Shown here: one piece after another, positions 3,462 to 19,385 of the stretch | Position numbering within the stretch: position 1 is the stretch's first letter | How the letters are laid out: each line of letters opens with the position of its first letter | Virus record (IMG/VR): IMGVR_UViG_3300018080_000579 | Span: 1-24,417 of that record | Origin: a virus | Direction: 5' to 3' (one strand) | DNA: 24,417 bases | The notes under the pieces: model-generated | Told to the model about the DNA's origin: nothing | Databases searched by the model: none | What the model saw: the letters and a program-made list of their open reading frames with translations, nothing else | Position numbers and translations under genes: made by a program

Positions 3462-4721
3462 TTAAATCATCGGCAAATAGTCTATGCTATCGCCAGTATA
3501 AACAGCTGGTATCGTGCAAGTCAATATAGCCTCGTATTGCCCTTTATTCAAAATTAGCTGAACAGATTCAATAATAAATGTTCTTCTCTCAAAAATTCCG
3601 TTTTGTGGTGATTGAATATCAACAAATTCCCCTGGTTGATATCGAACCCCCTCTGGAGTATACCAATCATCAACTGGTATTGTTAATTTAAACGCGCTAG
3701 AAACCTCTCTTAACATGCGCCATTTGGCAATATCGGCAGCCAAGCCCTCCGAAACATTTGGCATATTTACGTTTTTAAATATATTTAATGGCAACAAAGA
3801 GTTTTCAGCAGTACCTAAAATATTATTTGATCCATATTGAGAAAACAAATTATATTCTTTTGATAAAATCTCATAATTATAAACAGCAGCTATCCCCTCA
3901 AGCCCCTCTGTTTCACCATCTATAAAAGCCGCTATTGGTGGCTTTTGCTCTGCTCTAAATAAACATAACCCACCATCTGCAGTATCCCTAACAATAACGC
4001 CTCTGCTTTGGCAAATTCTAACCAAAAAATCAAAAGCATTTTCCATAACTCCAACAGAAACTCCAGATTGATCCCCATCATCAAAAACAATGTTTGAAAC
4101 ATTGCTTTCAACAGCAACTTTTATATTAAACAATCCAGCAATGCGCTCTGCAATTTGCTTTAATGTTTGCCCTGCAGAAAATTCTAGCGGAAAATTATTT
4201 GGCGCTATATCAGATCTAACCATTGTATGTACCGTAGATTTATACAATATTGTAATTCCCTTAAATGCCTTTGAATAAACTGGAGCTGGCGACATAGTGT
4301 ATCCTGTCAACAACTTTGTATTGTTTGCAATTATCTTGAATGAGCGGCCAAATTTAAAAGCATCTCTGTGAAAAGTATTAACAACTGGATCATAGCCGCA
4401 AACAATCCCTCCGCCACGCAAACCAGCAAGCGGCTCAAAATATTGGAAGTTATCAAATAACTCAAGATTTGTATCTGCAATAGTAATTGAAAGTGATTTT
4501 AGTTTCCCTGTATCTGTTTTAAACTCAACTATTTGCGATTTATCATCTGGCTTATCATCTGGAATTTTAATTGTTTTTCCAACAGGAAATATTGGCAATT
4601 CATCGAATGGCGGCAAATTATTTATTTTAATAATTTCACTTGCAAGCCTTGGATCTCCAAGCTCTTTTCTAGCAATTTTTTGCGGCGTATCTCCGAATTG
4701 AGCCTGATAATCTTTAAACAT
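3462..4721 (-). CDS. Baseplate hub protein (Mu P/gp44, gpD type) with N-terminal LysM
   Basis: 419-aa hub protein that would form the ring between tube and spike. The first 55 residues look like a LysM or tail protein X domain: a YQAQFGDTPQKIARKELGD start, a middle II-x-INNL, and an end PVGKTIKIP. In P2 this is a separate gene (X) and Mu P, as I recall it, lacks it. The rest resembles the gpD/P fold: LKSLSITIADTNLELFDNFQYFE opens the first beta domain, TAGYTMSPAPVYS-like and GQTLKQIAERIAGLFNIKVAVE segments follow, and SVGVMENAFDFLVRICQSRGVIVRDTADGGLCLFR is the most diagnostic stretch. It overlaps the upstream gene by 8 nt, and its ATG has no strong ribosome binding site, so coupling is likely. 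Confidence 0.88.
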   Translation of the reverse strand: MFKDYQAQFGDTPQKIARKELGDPRLASEIIKINNLPPFDELPIFPVGKTIKIPDDKPDDKSQIVEFKTDTGKLKSLSITIADTNLELFDNFQYFEPLAGLRGGGIVCGYDPVVNTFHRDAFKFGRSFKIIANNTKLLTGYTMSPAPVYSKAFKGITILYKSTVHTMVRSDIAPNNFPLEFSAGQTLKQIAERIAGLFNIKVAVESNVSNIVFDDGDQSGVSVGVMENAFDFLVRICQSRGVIVRDTADGGLCLFRAEQKPPIAAFIDGETEGLEGIAAVYNYEILSKEYNLFSQYGSNNILGTAENSLLPLNIFKNVNMPNVSEGLAADIAKWRMLREVSSAFKLTIPVDDWYTPEGVRYQPGEFVDIQSPQNGIFERRTFIIESVQLILNKGQYEAILTCTIPAVYTGDSIDYLPMI

Positions 4722-5991
4722 AAACTACTAGCTCTCTATTTCTTGGAATCAAAAGCAATTCATCGCCTGTCAATTTATTTGTTTCAATTACAAAATCAAG
4801 AGCCGCAACTTCATCTTCAATAAATTCATCTGGATAATATTCAATAGCCAAATTAATTGCAGTTGTTTCTTGCTCTAAAATTAAAACAACTTCTTTTTTC
4901 AAGTCAAAAGCAACATCAACTAGGTTTCCAGCAGCATCTTGAGCCAAATCATTTAAAGGCGTATCAAGCGAACCATCTTGAACAAACCTATCTTCAATCA
5001 GAATGCTTGGATCATTAAATGAATCTTGGATATCATCAACCGCCGCTCTGTATGTATCGTGAATGTTTTGCAGCTCTTCAACCGCGCTTATCGCCTCGCT
5101 AGTTGTTTGATATGTTGATGATGATAAACTTGCAGAAACTGCAGAAACTGCAGCTCCACCAAAAAAAGCAGCATTAATTGATTGATTCCTGCCATCATTG
5201 CTTTTTTCAATATCATCCGTTGTGCTTGGAAATACTTCATTAATTAAGCTTTTATATTTATCTACAACCGCAACAACATCATCAACAAATTTTGTTGGCA
5301 AGCTAATCAATGTTGCAGTTTGTTTTGCAAGCGTTTCTGCATCATCTTGTATTTCATCAATATTGTTTAAAATGTTTTCAACAGTAGCATCAAATTGCGC
5401 AACAGCATCTTGCTCACCCTCAATCAATGGCCGCAATAAAGCATTAACAGAATTAACCGCACTTGTAAAAACCCCAGTTATTCCTGTTAACTCTTTTTGA
5501 TTGTTTATTTTCAACGAATTAAAAGTTCCAGCTGCAGCACTGTTTACATTTGCAGATTTCTCAAGCAGCTGCGCTAATTGAGACTTGCCGCCAATTGGCG
5601 TTGTTTTGCCAGTACATTCAACAAAATCAATATCAACTTTTGTTACAGCAACATCATTTACAACGCTATATGATCTTCTAACTGTATTTGTATGGCAACG
5701 AATCTCATTACCATATGGCAACTGAACAAAAACCTCTCCAGTATTTGCTGCAGAAGCAAGAAACTTTGTTGCATCTATATCATGATCATCTCCAGCAAAT
5801 TCAAGGCTCAAAGGAAGCTTCCTTAAACTAACACCATTATCATTAACAACTGTTGATTTTAATTTTCCAACACTATCTTTTTCCTCTAAAAAATGACTAA
5901 AGGTTTCTTCAAAATTCCTAGCCAGTGGCTTATAAGCTTTTTTGTCTGGAAATGTTATTTTTACTTCATGTTGCCTATCTTCATATGTCAT
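4714..5991 (-). CDS. DNA circularisation / tail protein N (Mu gp43 type)
   Basis: 425-aa protein of the Mu N family, placed between tape measure and hub. The N-terminal 125 residues are the conserved domain: DxxFxV-like start, PDKKAYKPLARNFEETFSHF, LSLEFAGDDHDIDATKFLASA, and ANTGEVFVQLPYGNEIRCH followed by VVNDVAVTKVDIDFVE. The name comes from the reported role of Mu N in circularising injected DNA; structurally it is a baseplate component. The long C-terminal part is helical, acidic and poorly conserved. The start ATG is preceded by AGGGGTG, directly overlapping the end of the tape measure gene. Confidence 0.87.
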   Translation of the reverse strand: MTYEDRQHEVKITFPDKKAYKPLARNFEETFSHFLEEKDSVGKLKSTVVNDNGVSLRKLPLSLEFAGDDHDIDATKFLASAANTGEVFVQLPYGNEIRCHTNTVRRSYSVVNDVAVTKVDIDFVECTGKTTPIGGKSQLAQLLEKSANVNSAAAGTFNSLKINNQKELTGITGVFTSAVNSVNALLRPLIEGEQDAVAQFDATVENILNNIDEIQDDAETLAKQTATLISLPTKFVDDVVAVVDKYKSLINEVFPSTTDDIEKSNDGRNQSINAAFFGGAAVSAVSASLSSSTYQTTSEAISAVEELQNIHDTYRAAVDDIQDSFNDPSILIEDRFVQDGSLDTPLNDLAQDAAGNLVDVAFDLKKEVVLILEQETTAINLAIEYYPDEFIEDEVAALDFVIETNKLTGDELLLIPRNRELVVYV

Positions 5992-14393: not shown

Positions 14394-14771
14394 CTAAAAT
14401 AATAATCCCAACAAAAACACAGGCTGTCCAGTTCCAGCGGCCAAAGCCCCCCACGCTGCGCCCTTGACCTCTTCATCTGTTACGCCAACATGCCATCCAA
14501 GCCAATTTATAATAGGAACCTCAAAAAGATATTTTCCAACACCGTTTTTGCTTTTTTCTTTTTCCAGCTTAACCTTGCATTTTTCCTCTTGAATCTCCAG
14601 CTCTTTTTCTGCCTTTATTCTTTTAACAGTTTCTTTTTGCTTCTCTTCTTTTTGTTGCTGATATTTTGAAGCGGCCTCCATCGCTTGGGATTTCCAATCT
14701 ACAGTTTCAGCACAAAGACTATTCAGACTTATCAACAGGGCTACTAATAATAGCGATAGTTTCACTTTCAT
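14394..14771 (-). CDS. Spanin-like protein: signal sequence, coiled coil, hydrophobic C-terminus
   Basis: I choose the ATG at 14771, which follows GGAAAGGA at 8 nt, and not the TTG six codons upstream. The 125-aa protein begins with MKVKLSLLLVALLISLNSLCAE, a signal peptide or N-terminal anchor. Residues about 30-75 are a Lys/Glu/Gln-rich coiled coil. The last 35 residues include GAAWGALAAGTGQPVFLLGLLF, which could be a membrane segment. An anchor at each end with a coil between is the layout of a unimolecular spanin (u-spanin), but C20 is not in a proper lipobox (LNSLC). It could also be an i-spanin (Rz) whose partner is elsewhere. It lies at the end of the lysis-type genes, the usual place for spanins. 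Confidence 0.6.
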   Translation of the reverse strand: MKVKLSLLLVALLISLNSLCAETVDWKSQAMEAASKYQQQKEEKQKETVKRIKAEKELEIQEEKCKVKLEKEKSKNGVGKYLFEVPIINWLGWHVGVTDEEVKGAAWGALAAGTGQPVFLLGLLF

Positions 14772-14829
14772 TTGGCTTTTCCTTTCCAAAAAATATAAAT
14801 TTTATAAATTTCCAAATTGCACTTAACAT
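14719..14829 (-). CDS. Possible 36-aa peptide overlapping the spanin start
   Basis: An ATG at 14829 comes one nucleotide after the stop of the CPBP gene (TAATATG) and opens 36 codons. The first half, MLSAIWKFIKFIFFGKEK, is an amphipathic or short hydrophobic helix with lysines; the second half is polar. It overlaps the spanin gene in another frame over 53 nt, and the spanin ribosome binding site lies within it. There is no Shine-Dalgarno site, so it would need coupling. Overlapping frames are common in lysis cassettes, yet this may be chance. Function unknown. Confidence 0.3.
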   Translation of the reverse strand: MLSAIWKFIKFIFFGKEKPNESETIAIISSPVDKSE

Positions 14830-14830
14830 A

Positions 14831-15364
14831 TTAAATACAATTATACCAGACTAACAAAATAATCCAAATAAATGGCGCTCTCAATAGTTGATGGCCATTG
14901 TCATATAGATAGAGATTCTTTTTGCCCTCATTAATAGTGACCTTGTTTAAAATCTGAACCGCATAGATTGACATTGCGTGAAAAACAATATTGCTACCGT
15001 TAAGCCAAAAATACTTTGCGCAAACCGCACCAAACAATGTTAATCCTATTGTTAACAATGATATTTCTGCAACTGTTCCATACTCTCCACCGCCCCGATA
15101 CATTCCCCACAAAAAATGAGTTAATGAGAAAAATAACGCAGATCCCCACAATGCAATTTCGTTTCCAGCAAGCGGCAAAAGCAACTTGAAATAAATCAAA
15201 TATCTAAAAACCATCTCTTCAAAAATAGCAACAGGAATTGCAATTGTAAATATATCAAGCAAACAGGATTGCCAACCGCTATTAAACTGGTATTTTGTTA
15301 CTTTGAAAATCTGCATCAACAAAGCATATCCAATTATTACTATAAAAATTAAAAACGGATTCAT
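14831..15364 (-). CDS. CPBP-family (CAAX-like) intramembrane metalloprotease
   Basis: 177-aa polytopic membrane protein. It shows the three CPBP motifs in order: EExxxR (E49-E50-M-V-F-R54), FxxxH (F79-S-L-T-H83) and a third histidine H129 in SNIVFHAMS. These residues lie in hydrophobic segments at about 36-62, 70-90 and 103-135; there is an N-terminal segment (about 3-18) and a last one (about 163-177). Known members process prenylated proteins, or act in bacteriocin immunity and peptide maturation in bacteria. The ATG overlaps the holin-like gene by ATGA, with AAGGTGG in front. I know no standard role for such a protease in phage lysis. Confidence 0.82.
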   Translation of the reverse strand: MNPFLIFIVIIGYALLMQIFKVTKYQFNSGWQSCLLDIFTIAIPVAIFEEMVFRYLIYFKLLLPLAGNEIALWGSALFFSLTHFLWGMYRGGGEYGTVAEISLLTIGLTLFGAVCAKYFWLNGSNIVFHAMSIYAVQILNKVTINEGKKNLYLYDNGHQLLRAPFIWIILLVWYNCI

Positions 15365-15615
15365 TTCTTGACCACCTTTTTTGCAGCATCTGCAATTTGT
15401 TTAAATACTTGAGAATTACTTCCTTTTGCTGTAACAGCAACTTGATATGCAACAACTGTTGCAAGAACCGTACTCATAAAAATATAGCAAGAATTTGTTA
15501 CTTCAACACTGCCCCAAACATCATGCCACACAACCAAGCAACTCAATGTTACAACTAACAAGGTTAGAAAAAATCTTATTGAGCCAAAAACACATTTGAT
15601 AAATTCCATCAACAT
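15361..15615 (-). CDS. Holin-like two-segment membrane protein
   Basis: The ATG at 15615 follows GGAGG at 7 nt, and overlaps the stop of the upstream gene, so I prefer it to the TTG one codon before. The 84-aa protein has two hydrophobic segments, about 10-30 (VFGSIRFFLTLLVVTLSCLVV) and 42-62 (NSCYIFMSTVLATVVAYQVAV), and a basic C-terminus (AADAAKKVVKK-like). This is the size and layout of class II holins. It sits directly after the endolysin candidate. No strict holin family motif is recognised, so the name is an inference. Confidence 0.6.
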   Translation of the reverse strand: MLMEFIKCVFGSIRFFLTLLVVTLSCLVVWHDVWGSVEVTNSCYIFMSTVLATVVAYQVAVTAKGSNSQVFKQIADAAKKVVKK

Positions 15616-16151
15616 CAATATACCTCCACATCTAAAATTGTGTTGTTCTCAAACCATTGCTTAAATACATTTAAAAGCCTAACAGCATGATCAAGATTTT
15701 CTGGCTGTAAACCAAAACATCCAAGAGTTCCTTCAATACCATTAATTGGATCGTCAAAATGGATGGCAATACCAGTCATTCCAATAGAGCGCTCTTTTTC
15801 TTTTGGCGTTGCATCTTTGCTTAACGAAATAAACTCAAGCGGAACTTGAAAAGACAAGCCAAATGCTCCCATTCTCTTAAAATGCTCTGGATCTGTTTTG
15901 TCATATTGAATAAATTTATAACCTCGATAAATCCCTCGCGGCGCATATCCTCTGCCCCATCTGCCAGAAATAAACCTACACTCTAGACCTTTAAAATAGA
16001 GCGTTCCCCACTCTTCATTATCATCTTGCGGCTGCTCTTTATCATAACGAATATAAACTTTGTTGTTGTCAAAAGTTTCTTTTTTATCACCAAAAATTGT
16101 TCCTATTAAGCTTTTAAAAAACGACACTATATACCCCCAAATTTTACGCAT
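15615..16151 (-). CDS. Probable endolysin, L,D-transpeptidase-like fold
   Basis: 178-aa protein. Residues 3-20 are hydrophobic (IWGYIVSFFKSLIGTIF) and could be an amphipathic anchor or signal-arrest segment. The rest matches the plan of L,D-transpeptidase-like phage proteins and DUF5675/DUF2778-type enzymes: strand EWGTLYFKGLECRFI, then YAPRGIYRGYKF (the G-x-Y loop), and the active-site pattern IAIHFDD (H131) followed by GTLGCFGL (C145). Such enzymes cut or exchange peptidoglycan crosslinks, so I infer the cell-wall degrading function. It overlaps both neighbours by a few bases. No other endolysin candidate is found in the window. Confidence 0.55.
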   Translation of the reverse strand: MRKIWGYIVSFFKSLIGTIFGDKKETFDNNKVYIRYDKEQPQDDNEEWGTLYFKGLECRFISGRWGRGYAPRGIYRGYKFIQYDKTDPEHFKRMGAFGLSFQVPLEFISLSKDATPKEKERSIGMTGIAIHFDDPINGIEGTLGCFGLQPENLDHAVRLLNVFKQWFENNTILDVEVY

Positions 16152-16767
16152 ATGCTAATTTTCTAAAATAAGTATCCCAAGTATTTATAACCATAACTTC
16201 AAATGCTTGCAACAACCTATTTAATGTATCTGTCCTTGAGCCGTTCAATCCTTCACTATTATAAATATGGCAAATTAACTCAAGCTCTGTTGTGTACTTT
16301 GGCATTAACAATTCAGAAGTTTCTTTCATTAACTGGACTTCATATTGATAGCCCTCTTTGATTAAACGCTGCCAAGTGCCATTCATTTGCGATGTTGTGA
16401 TCTCTAAGATATCTTGAAAGTTCTTTTTTTCAGACTTTTTTAAATTTTGTTTATCATTAAAATAATTCATATACTTTTGAATAATAATAGATGTGCTGTT
16501 TTTCGCTGCAGTAATTATATGGTTTACTTTTTTTCTCTTTTCACTACTCAAATTATCTTCAAACTTAATAAGATATCTTTCAACTTTTTCAATGATATTA
16601 TCTTTTTTTTTGGAATTCTCCCTGAATGTTTTCGCTTCCCTATCGTGATGATCCCACTTTTGCTTATTTAGCCTACCCATGAACACCAGAGAAACGCCTA
16701 TTGCAAGTCCAATTGGTGCTGGCTGATTGATATATAATGTATAAAATTCCCCTAATTCTCTCAACAC
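16144..16767 (-). CDS. Unknown helical protein with N-terminal membrane segment
   Basis: 207-aa protein of unknown function. The start is a GTG at 16767 after GGGGGA at 9 nt. One hydrophobic segment (about 16-31, APIGLAIGVSLVFMGR) is followed by a strongly charged, helical region with coiled-coil character (about 35-140) and a C-terminal helical part. It overlaps the endolysin candidate by 8 nt (ATGCGTAA), so it belongs to the same block. An N-terminal anchor and helical domain could suit a lysis regulator, an antiholin or a superinfection exclusion protein, but nothing in the sequence decides. Confidence 0.8.
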   Translation of the reverse strand: MLRELGEFYTLYINQPAPIGLAIGVSLVFMGRLNKQKWDHHDREAKTFRENSKKKDNIIEKVERYLIKFEDNLSSEKRKKVNHIITAAKNSTSIIIQKYMNYFNDKQNLKKSEKKNFQDILEITTSQMNGTWQRLIKEGYQYEVQLMKETSELLMPKYTTELELICHIYNSEGLNGSRTDTLNRLLQAFEVMVINTWDTYFRKLAYA

Positions 16768-16791
16768 TTCTTTTGATCCCCCTGTTTGCTG

Positions 16792-18450
16792 TTAAAAAAG
16801 TTCCTCCCACCTTATGGCCAAGTCGACATCTCCGCTTGTTCCGCCTGGTGTTGATATTATAAATGTTGCAGTGTCGTTTGGCTGCAAGGTTAACGCTAAC
16901 TCTTTTACTATTTCAAAAAAGGTGTCAAGCCGACCCATCGTCCAGTCTAAAAATGTTTCCCCAGTTGCATCTGAAACAACTAGATCCGTACTAACCTCCA
17001 AAACGGAATCTGCGCTAACGTCATTCCATGTCTCACCACCAACCAATGGTGCGTTTTTTAATATTTTCCATCCTACAATTTTGTTAAGGTCTGTTGCTGC
17101 AGAAATTAAATCCAATACTGCAGGAATCCTATTTTCTATTCCGCTATATGTGCTTTTATTTCTAAAGCCAACCAAGGTATCTATCCCAGAAGTAATTGCC
17201 TGTAGCCCCAAAGAATAATTGAACTTTCTTGATCCAGGATCTGTTTCTGCACCATCAACAATGCCAGCCGTTAAACTTCCTGTTGAAAAAACAAGATCTG
17301 TTGTATTCCCAGCATTAACAGCCTCTGCCCTGACAGGCAAATTTGTTTGTGTAATATGAGTTATTGTTTGGGTGTTTGGATATTCAATGCGGCCAATATT
17401 TCGCCAAACCCCAGATGAATCAAGAACAGAAAAGTTTATAGTTGCAAAGCCAAGATATCCAAAAGTTATTGCATATACATTTCCTTTTGTTGGATCAAAT
17501 ACCTCCAGGGGAAACACCTTTGTTATATCAACTACTTGCTGATAATCAACGCCCTGTCTCCTGCGGCCAACTACAAATTCAGTTTCATTGTACCCAAGAT
17601 AAAACCCATCATTGCTATCAAACAGCCCTGCATATTGGTGCGAACTTGCAACCCCTTGGGAAAAAACGCCCGTAAAATAACAATATGCCTCATGGCCAGG
17701 AATATATCTTAAATATGTATTACTCTGGATTGTAACCGCGCCGTTGCTATCTGTTCCTGTATTAATTGTCAATAAAGAGTTGGCAACATTTGCCGCGCCA
17801 GACCCGACAATAGTTGTTGTTGCATCATCGCTGGCAAGCCCATATTGAAATTGAGCCGCAATTGTCGGCTTTCTCATCCCAACTAGCCTATCGCCAAATA
17901 CACTATTAAGCGCAGTTCTTTTATTGTGATCTGTATCATTAACATGTATTGGGTTTGATTCATTGTCTGCATTAACAACAATTTCGCTCATTTTTGGAAT
18001 AAAAATATTTGTTATTCCAACGCGATCTGCAGTATGAAACTCTATCTTAACAGCATTCATTCCAACTGGAGCGCCAAAGCGAACAATTTTGCTTGTCAAC
18101 TTTGTGCTATCGCTAGATTCATCAAATATTGGAACTTCGCCACCACCAGACGTTACAGCATAAATTTTAATATTACTAAAGTTTCCACCCTCTGAATTGC
18201 CAAAAGCTATGCTTGGGAAAACAGTGCTTCTCTGAAAATGAACAAGCAGGGTTTTTGGGTTATCAGAAGAATCATTATAAACTTCTGAATGCAAATCGTT
18301 AAAAAAGTCGCAAACATCCCCAGTCCAGCCAGATATATCACTTCTCTCTTTGTCTATGTCCTTACAATAAACGCTGTCTCCATCTGTTGGAACTGGATTT
18401 TGCAAGTCTGCTCTTTGTTTGCCAAGTTTTTTTACTGAACTTCTTTCCAT
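16792..18450 (-). CDS. Probable virion appendage protein (head fibre or similar)
   Basis: 552-aa protein rich in beta, Thr, Ser, Gly and Asn. The N-terminal 150 residues have a beta-sandwich-like pattern (ALLVHFQRSTVFPSIAFG-type strands). About residues 225-395 contain a region with YIPGHEAYCYFTGVFSQG, DSNDGFYLGYN, then DPTKGNVYAITFGYLGFATINF and NAGNTTDLVFSTGS, a pattern I associate with jelly-roll-type domains of phage surface proteins. The end (LALTLQPNDTATFIIST) is also beta. It could be a head fibre, neck appendage or receptor-binding accessory. Its place between portal and lysis cassette is unusual for tail fibres. It begins 3 nt after the previous stop. Confidence 0.55.
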   Translation of the reverse strand: MERSSVKKLGKQRADLQNPVPTDGDSVYCKDIDKERSDISGWTGDVCDFFNDLHSEVYNDSSDNPKTLLVHFQRSTVFPSIAFGNSEGGNFSNIKIYAVTSGGGEVPIFDESSDSTKLTSKIVRFGAPVGMNAVKIEFHTADRVGITNIFIPKMSEIVVNADNESNPIHVNDTDHNKRTALNSVFGDRLVGMRKPTIAAQFQYGLASDDATTTIVGSGAANVANSLLTINTGTDSNGAVTIQSNTYLRYIPGHEAYCYFTGVFSQGVASSHQYAGLFDSNDGFYLGYNETEFVVGRRRQGVDYQQVVDITKVFPLEVFDPTKGNVYAITFGYLGFATINFSVLDSSGVWRNIGRIEYPNTQTITHITQTNLPVRAEAVNAGNTTDLVFSTGSLTAGIVDGAETDPGSRKFNYSLGLQAITSGIDTLVGFRNKSTYSGIENRIPAVLDLISAATDLNKIVGWKILKNAPLVGGETWNDVSADSVLEVSTDLVVSDATGETFLDWTMGRLDTFFEIVKELALTLQPNDTATFIISTPGGTSGDVDLAIRWEELF

Positions 18451-18452
18451 TA

Positions 18453-18770
18453 TTACAGCCCATCATCGGCAATGACAACATCGCCAAGCGACCCTTTAAC
18501 ATAAGTTTTTCGAGTGCTTACAGCTTCAATAATTTGCCCTGTAAAGTCAAACGGTATTGCGCCAATATCATTTGTGTTTACAGTGTTAACAAGAATCCTT
18601 GAATCTTCACCTTTTCTTGGATCAACTTTTGATTCAACAGTAATTGTTCCCTCTGGACATTCAATATATTCATCCTCTGGAGTAGGTGTCATTGCAGCCT
18701 TATCCTCTGCAGAATACTTGCTATCAGCTAGATCTTGAGCAGATCCAAAAAAATAAATCGTTCTGCCCAT
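18453..18770 (-). CDS. Small unknown protein, probable head-module
   Basis: 105-aa acidic protein with no family that I recognise. The first third is helical and polar (AQDLADSKYSAEDKAAM), the rest probably beta (GTITVESKVDPRKGED, FDFTGQIIEAVSTRKTYVKGSLGDVVI). It begins with MGR like its upstream neighbour and is separated from it by only 3 nt. It may be a small partner of the 552-aa protein that follows after 2 nt, for example an attachment or chaperone protein. That is inferred only from adjacency. Confidence 0.7.
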   Translation of the reverse strand: MGRTIYFFGSAQDLADSKYSAEDKAAMTPTPEDEYIECPEGTITVESKVDPRKGEDSRILVNTVNTNDIGAIPFDFTGQIIEAVSTRKTYVKGSLGDVVIADDGL

Positions 18771-18773
18771 TTT

Positions 18774-19385
18774 TTATTTCTCTTTTTTAGATTCTTTTTT
18801 ATAGCTTGGGTTTGGAAGTCTTTTTAAGCAGATTTTGTTTTGACACTCAAGCCACTGTTTAGTTTCCTTCATTTCAGTTAAACAAGATGGACAACGCAAA
18901 GATTTTTTTGGCTTGTTCTCCCTCTCGCTCATTTTAAGGGCTTTTTTTGTTTCAGATTCACCCCTAAGATCAAGATTTTGTTCTTTTATTTCATCCTCTT
19001 CTGTTTTTTCAGAATCGGCCTTTTCTTTATCATCTTTACCAACAAGCTTTTTAGCAGCATCGCCAATTTTGCCAAGAATGCTTTTGTTTTCTTCTGAATT
19101 TTCAGATGAATTATCATCACCATTTTCAGTTGAATTATTTTCAGAAGATTCTGTTGCTTCTGGAGCATCTTCTTTTATAAGCTTTTCAATCTCTTCAATC
19201 AAAACTTCTTTTTTCAAAGTTTCAGCATCTTTAATTTCTGCAATTTGAGCAACTGCAACTAAATCTGCTTGTTCCATATCAGATAATTTTTTATCAGCCA
19301 AAAGCTCTTTGATATCAGACGCTTTTTTATCCTCAACCAAATTTTTCGCTGCTTCATCACTTTTGTTATTATCATTTCTTCCCAT
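18774..19385 (-). CDS. Acidic, low-complexity protein with C-terminal zinc ribbon
   Basis: 203-aa highly charged protein. Residues about 22-72 are helical with repeated Leu/Ala and Lys/Glu, resembling short HeH/SAP-like or Rho-N-like phage domains (SDIKELLADKKLSDMEQADL). Residues about 73-160 are Ser/Glu/Asn/Asp-rich and probably disordered. Residues 165-186 hold C165-x2-C168 and C181-x4-C186, likely a zinc-binding knuckle reminiscent of Mu Com-type fingers, followed by a basic tail. A role in nucleic-acid binding or translation control is possible. A strong GGAGGT site and an extended -10 element precede it. Confidence 0.7.
   Translation of the reverse strand: MGRNDNNKSDEAAKNLVEDKKASDIKELLADKKLSDMEQADLVAVAQIAEIKDAETLKKEVLIEEIEKLIKEDAPEATESSENNSTENGDDNSSENSEENKSILGKIGDAAKKLVGKDDKEKADSEKTEEDEIKEQNLDLRGESETKKALKMSERENKPKKSLRCPSCLTEMKETKQWLECQNKICLKRLPNPSYKKESKKEK

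Follow-up and report, generated by a model that had tools for sequence, protein, structure and literature searches.

What role might a membrane protein of the CPBP protease family play in the late operon of a phage? The question arises from the window analysed here, a 24,417-base virus record from a contractile-tailed phage, in which all genes lie on the minus strand and encode, among others, a terminase, a portal, a ClpP-type head protease, a decoration protein, a major head protein, a tail sheath, a tape measure and baseplate proteins. The original prediction described a CPBP intramembrane protease with all three family motifs inside a lysis cassette, between holin-like and spanin-like genes. 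Our analysis partly supports that reading and refines it at several points.

The 177-aa membrane-protein ORF proved to be real, and its strand, which the original prediction had not given, is minus, with an ATG start codon at 15364. Comparison with the homologue on a second viral contig (L283), which shares 54% identity over residues 6-174, gave identities of 0.56/0.71/0.46 at the three codon positions, and 44 of the 94 identical residues are coded by different codons; both patterns indicate that the frame has been selected as protein. The assignment to the CPBP family was confirmed by two profiles. In the Pfam search, PF02517 (Rce1-like) matched the protein with E = 1.9e-6 and 28.5 bits, above the curated cut-off of 22.4 bits, and our own CPBP profile, built from 30 cellular domains, retrieved it with E = 3.4e-9 as the sole match among the 29 window proteins. 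Family membership, as judged by profile, stands.

The catalytic residues named in advance (E49, E50, H83 and H129) are all present, and R54 and F79 complete the first two motifs, EExxxR (E49-E50-M-V-F-R54) and FxxxH (F79-S-L-T-H83). These motifs and the His of the third are also kept in the L283 protein. The third motif, HxxxN (or D), is incomplete because the Asn expected four residues past H129 is Ile133 (H129-A-M-S-I133); L283 also has HxxxI, so that the claim of all three motifs was slightly too strong. HxxxN occurs in all cellular CPBP sequences inspected, a biased sample comprising only the best-scoring ones, and its Asn has been described as part of the oxyanion hole (PMC11980579). With HxxxI in place of HxxxN, full catalytic competence does not follow from family membership.

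In other respects the protein resembles the glutamic intramembrane proteases of the CPBP/Rce1-like family (PF02517), such as MmRce1 and the myxosortase MrtX: it is a multi-helix membrane protein, scores above the Pfam cut-off and shares EExxxR, FxxxH and the third His. It differs from them in its short length and in approximately 11-13 extra residues between H83 and H129, while the two phage proteins together are set apart by the Ile at the Asn position, by a conserved C-terminal DNGHQLLRA stretch and by their location in phage late operons. A single-sequence AlphaFold2 model of the window protein was helical with low confidence (pLDDT 52), and a PDB sequence search with it returned no match.

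Table. Genes of the inserted block of the window, listed in the direction of transcription.
Feature	Coordinates	Strand	Basis
105-aa protein, encoded first in the inserted block	18453..18770	(-)	No family match; absent from relatives
Virion structural protein, phrog_1645 type	16792..18450	(-)	phrog_1645, E=7.4e-27; in the same insertion
207-aa protein	16144..16767	(-)	Long charged helices behind a moderately hydrophobic N-terminal stretch
178-aa protein, candidate peptidoglycan peptidase	15615..16151	(-)	N-terminal amphipathic helix; PxGxY...IH...GCxGL motifs
Holin candidate, 85 aa, two hydrophobic segments	15361..15615	(-)	Hydropathy, sequence
CPBP/Rce1-like membrane protein, 177 aa	14831..15364	(-)	PF02517 match; own CPBP profile; 54% identical homologue L283:4028-4564
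Tiny ORF, 36 aa, MLSAIWKFIKFIFFGKEKPN...	14719..14829	(-)	ATG one base past the CPBP stop; overlaps next gene
Exported protein, spanin-like candidate	14394..14771	(-)	Cys-containing, signal-like N-terminus; charged, helical central part; hydrophobic C-terminal end

The genes around the CPBP gene are tightly packed. The predicted ATGA overlap with the upstream gene is present, formed by the stop of the ORF at 15361-15618 and the CPBP start at 15364. This upstream ORF is listed from a TTG at 15618, and the ATG of the 85-aa protein overlaps the preceding gene's stop by a single base (TGATG). The gene for the downstream exported protein is listed from a TTG at 14789, and its ATG at 14771 is preceded by the ribosome-binding-site-like GGAAAGGA. 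Further upstream, the 207-aa gene, which had no significant match in family searches, overlaps the next gene by 8 bases.

The holin-like and spanin-like character of the flanking genes holds for hydrophobicity and position, but not for profile matches: the best match of the 85-aa protein was to the phrog_6918 holin (E=0.087), and the best spanin profile in the PHROG search of the window was the phrog_312 Rz-like spanin (E = 0.13), neither of them significant. Profile searches likewise yielded no significant endolysin, holin or spanin family match among the neighbours of the CPBP gene, in which respect the window differs from canonical phage lysis cassettes. The 178-aa protein is a candidate endolysin, since its pattern PxGxY...GIAIH...GTLGCFGL recalls cysteine peptidoglycan peptidases; the pattern appeared in 0 of 20,000 shuffles, a figure to be read with the fact that it was picked post hoc, after the sequence had been viewed. 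Searches of Pfam, PHROGs, NCBIfam and PDB gave nothing significant for this protein, and its predicted structure reached a pLDDT of 44. A DUF5675-type identity was considered but found no support: the profile match was confined to the IH...GC stretch and was not significant (P = 0.095).

The lysis setting gains its support indirectly, from the setting of the L283 homologue. This protein was detected in a scan of viral contigs with a small mixed CPBP alignment, is the sole close homologue found, and scores 21.2 bits against PF02517, just under the cut-off. Outside the CPBP protein, no proteins of the window match those of the L283 phage; judged on this comparison, the two phages are unrelated. 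In L283, the genes for large virion-type proteins are followed by that of an M15 endolysin and by a 59-aa hydrophobic ORF; the CPBP gene comes next, with a tiny ORF, the gene for an 87-aa exported protein, an uncharacterised gene and a RusA-type gene behind it. The 118-aa M15 protein matches Peptidase_M15_3 (E = 6e-16) and phrog_894, annotated 'lysis, endolysin' (E = 1.7e-19), and on these profiles is certainly a bona fide endolysin. The ATG of the 59-aa ORF overlaps the endolysin stop by a single base, and the ORF ends one base before the CPBP ATG. The tiny ORF (4666-4815) occupies the same place as that of the window and is followed by the 87-aa protein (L283:4703-4966), with a signal-like N-terminus and a hydrophobic C-terminus. 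With its M15 endolysin, and with genes for small membrane or exported proteins flanking that of the CPBP protein, L283 resembles canonical lysis cassettes.

The window presents a parallel order: the candidate peptidase at 15615-16151, the 85-aa protein with two hydrophobic segments, the CPBP gene, the tiny ORF and the exported protein with a hydrophobic end. Both loci thus share one succession: a small hydrophobic ORF precedes the CPBP gene, which is followed by a tiny ORF and then by the gene for an exported protein whose tail is hydrophobic. The small hydrophobic ORFs of the two phages drew no significant profile match. Pairwise comparison of the flanking proteins revealed no homology save in the downstream exported pair (14394-14771 and L283:4703-4966), whose weak similarity has a score reached by 2% of shuffles. 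Since the flanking proteins are not detectably homologous, the shared order seems to reflect genes of like role coming together repeatedly, not the inheritance of a single block. In two unrelated phages (n = 2), then, members of one CPBP subfamily are surrounded by genes with apparently matching roles, and the position of a close relative behind a genuine cell-wall-cutting enzyme in L283 suggests that phages may use this type of protein for host exit. The lysis setting that had been proposed is therefore supported indirectly, by the homologue that adjoins lysis-type genes, but not by a recognised endolysin, holin or spanin in the window itself. Similarly, the one other phage with a relative of the gene, L283, shows it linked to lysis genes (n = 2), while the whole-phage relatives of the window lack the gene.

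Taken together, we consider it a little less than an even chance (about 45%) that this CPBP subfamily member is an accessory factor for phage lysis or envelope exit that acts proteolytically on a partner encoded by a neighbouring gene. Synthesised late and translated along with the small hydrophobic protein encoded upstream, the protein would reside in the inner membrane. Its most likely target would be a membrane-anchored partner encoded alongside it, either the holin-like protein or the downstream exported protein. Cleavage of this partner, inside the membrane or beside it, would control whether the envelope fails and at what point. The location in a late operon, on the same strand and with overlapping genes, speaks for a role in the final stage of infection. 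Under this reading the window neighbours would be a holin and a spanin, and the CPBP protein would presumably be needed for lysis. A precedent for the choice of partner is myxosortase, a CPBP protease whose substrates are exported proteins carrying a membrane helix at the C-terminus (PMC11980579). The downstream exported proteins of the window and L283 both have a hydrophobic tail, neither has a proper lipobox, and a myxosortase-type partner was not recognised in 14394-14771 or L283:4703-4966, which have no Cys just before the hydrophobic tail and no Arg-rich, MYXO-CTERM-like end.

On this reading the window protein would be proteolytically active: the kept Glu, Arg and His favour cutting, while the lost Asn calls for caution. 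The missing Asn also leaves room for a non-proteolytic role, in which a pseudo-protease would hold or orient a peptidoglycan hydrolase or holin at the membrane. Such a role has been described for SpdC (LyrA) of Staphylococcus aureus, a membrane CAAX-protease homologue that acts as a scaffold for the glucosaminidase SagB (PMC10581084). By that description, the likeness lies in a CAAX-protease homologue working with a peptidoglycan hydrolase; the SpdC system differs in being cellular and in its housekeeping cell-wall role. The break of HxxxN in both phage proteins and the position of the L283 gene two genes behind that of a peptidoglycan peptidase agree with a scaffold, but at 54% identity the two phage proteins still share both catalytic Glu, the Arg and both His, which a mere scaffold would not need. 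While sequence cannot tell cutting from scaffolding of a lysis protein, we regard the scaffold as rather unlikely.

The preferred reading, an accessory lysis or exit protease, must also be weighed against the origin of the locus. Relatives of the window terminase (41-53% identity) were found on contigs mostly binned as gut Gastranaerophilales/Melainabacteria, as well as on IMG/VR contigs, and are syntenic with the window. In the five examined closely, the portal gene precedes that of an acidic protein with a terminal zinc-ribbon motif, resembling window 18774-19385, with the head protease gene immediately after it. Between these last two genes the window carries seven extra genes over approximately 4.4 kb (14394-18770), which are absent from the examined relatives and had no BLAST match in any relative fetched. 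The virion protein of this block is related to one whose gene immediately follows that of the portal in Sulfitobacter phage phiGT1, and the 105-aa gene probably belongs with it. The lysis genes of the relatives themselves, a lysozyme (PF00959, E = 1e-46) or an amidase (PF01520, E = 4e-44), lie downstream of the tail-fibre region. The window stops about 500 bases past its gpI equivalent, in an open ORF, and this lysis-gene zone lies beyond it; the window alone thus does not show that the inserted block is a lysis cassette, and the block may not be a lysis module at all.

The insertion could accordingly have brought in a gene unrelated to lysis, serving immunity, superinfection exclusion or host-membrane stress, and the CPBP family does include bacteriocin-immunity proteins. 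Against such cargo speak the shared strand and tight overlaps within the late operon, which point to late rather than lysogenic expression, and the L283 homologue, which adjoins an endolysin gene and is not in a cargo island. Membership of a known anti-phage defence family was rejected, as the PADLOC search returned no match for either phage CPBP protein. We consider lysis-unrelated cargo unlikely. It is very improbable that the CPBP protein is itself the membrane-permeabilising agent, a holin or pinholin with leftover catalytic residues: it is a small multi-helix membrane protein and in L283 lies close behind the endolysin, a possible place for a holin gene, but both phages have a separate small hydrophobic ORF directly upstream and the active-site residues are kept.

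The phage proteins so far appear to form a subfamily found in viruses alone. A profile made from the two members had no match at E <= 1e-9 in either of two sets of cellular genomes (395 and 386). Two further scans yielded no third member, and neither a search of phage records with the single CPBP protein nor single-protein patterns run on viral contigs yielded a homologue. PF02517 itself was present in 80 of the 188 cellular genomes of the relatives' class, in none of the 50 virus records with related terminases, and not in the genome with the nearest terminase relative (G001). Cellular-type CPBP matches in phage records all fell in unannotated records. The literature search, which scarcely covered subscription journals, found no paper on a CPBP protein in a phage lysis cassette, and its matches pairing CPBP with phage terms were unrelated.

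Phage lysis is understood in terms of holins, endolysins and spanins. A membrane-protease-family protein recurring at the same position in two unrelated phages would extend this scheme by a regulatory or scaffolding component, and the phage proteins would offer a simple, self-contained setting for learning the targets of prokaryotic CPBP proteins that lack assigned roles. More speculatively, some phages might possess an intramembrane glutamic protease dedicated to the role of lysis switch, timing the burst by cutting a holin or envelope-spanning protein encoded next to it; we hold this to be doubtful, and if true it would represent a new class of lysis component.

Several further features of these sequences were observed. 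Proteins of the phrog_1645 type, here in an insertion of a gut-type phage, are otherwise found in cyanophages, a haloarchaeal virus and phage phiGT1. Two contigs titled Bacteroidales and Rickettsiales (L091 and L092) carry terminases of the Gastranaerophilales-phage group, possibly through binning errors or a wider host range, and the head protease of L090:14268-15359 and the terminase of L092:4659-6693 are each split over two ORFs, possibly owing to prophage decay or sequencing errors. The 772-aa terminase of the L283 phage (L285:3479-5797) resembles Marinitoga phage terminases, with only approximately its first 390 residues matching (57%); an intein, a fusion or missed divergence are candidate readings of the remainder. 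An IW...F(F/L)FG(K/R/D)-type amphipathic pattern, with a score that is not significant, recurs in 14719-14829, in L283:4666-4815 and at the N-terminus of 15615-16151; it could serve as a membrane-binding leader or be due to chance. In L283, an inverted repeat, GGGCTAC...GTAGCCC, separates the CPBP gene from the tiny ORF (4564-4666).
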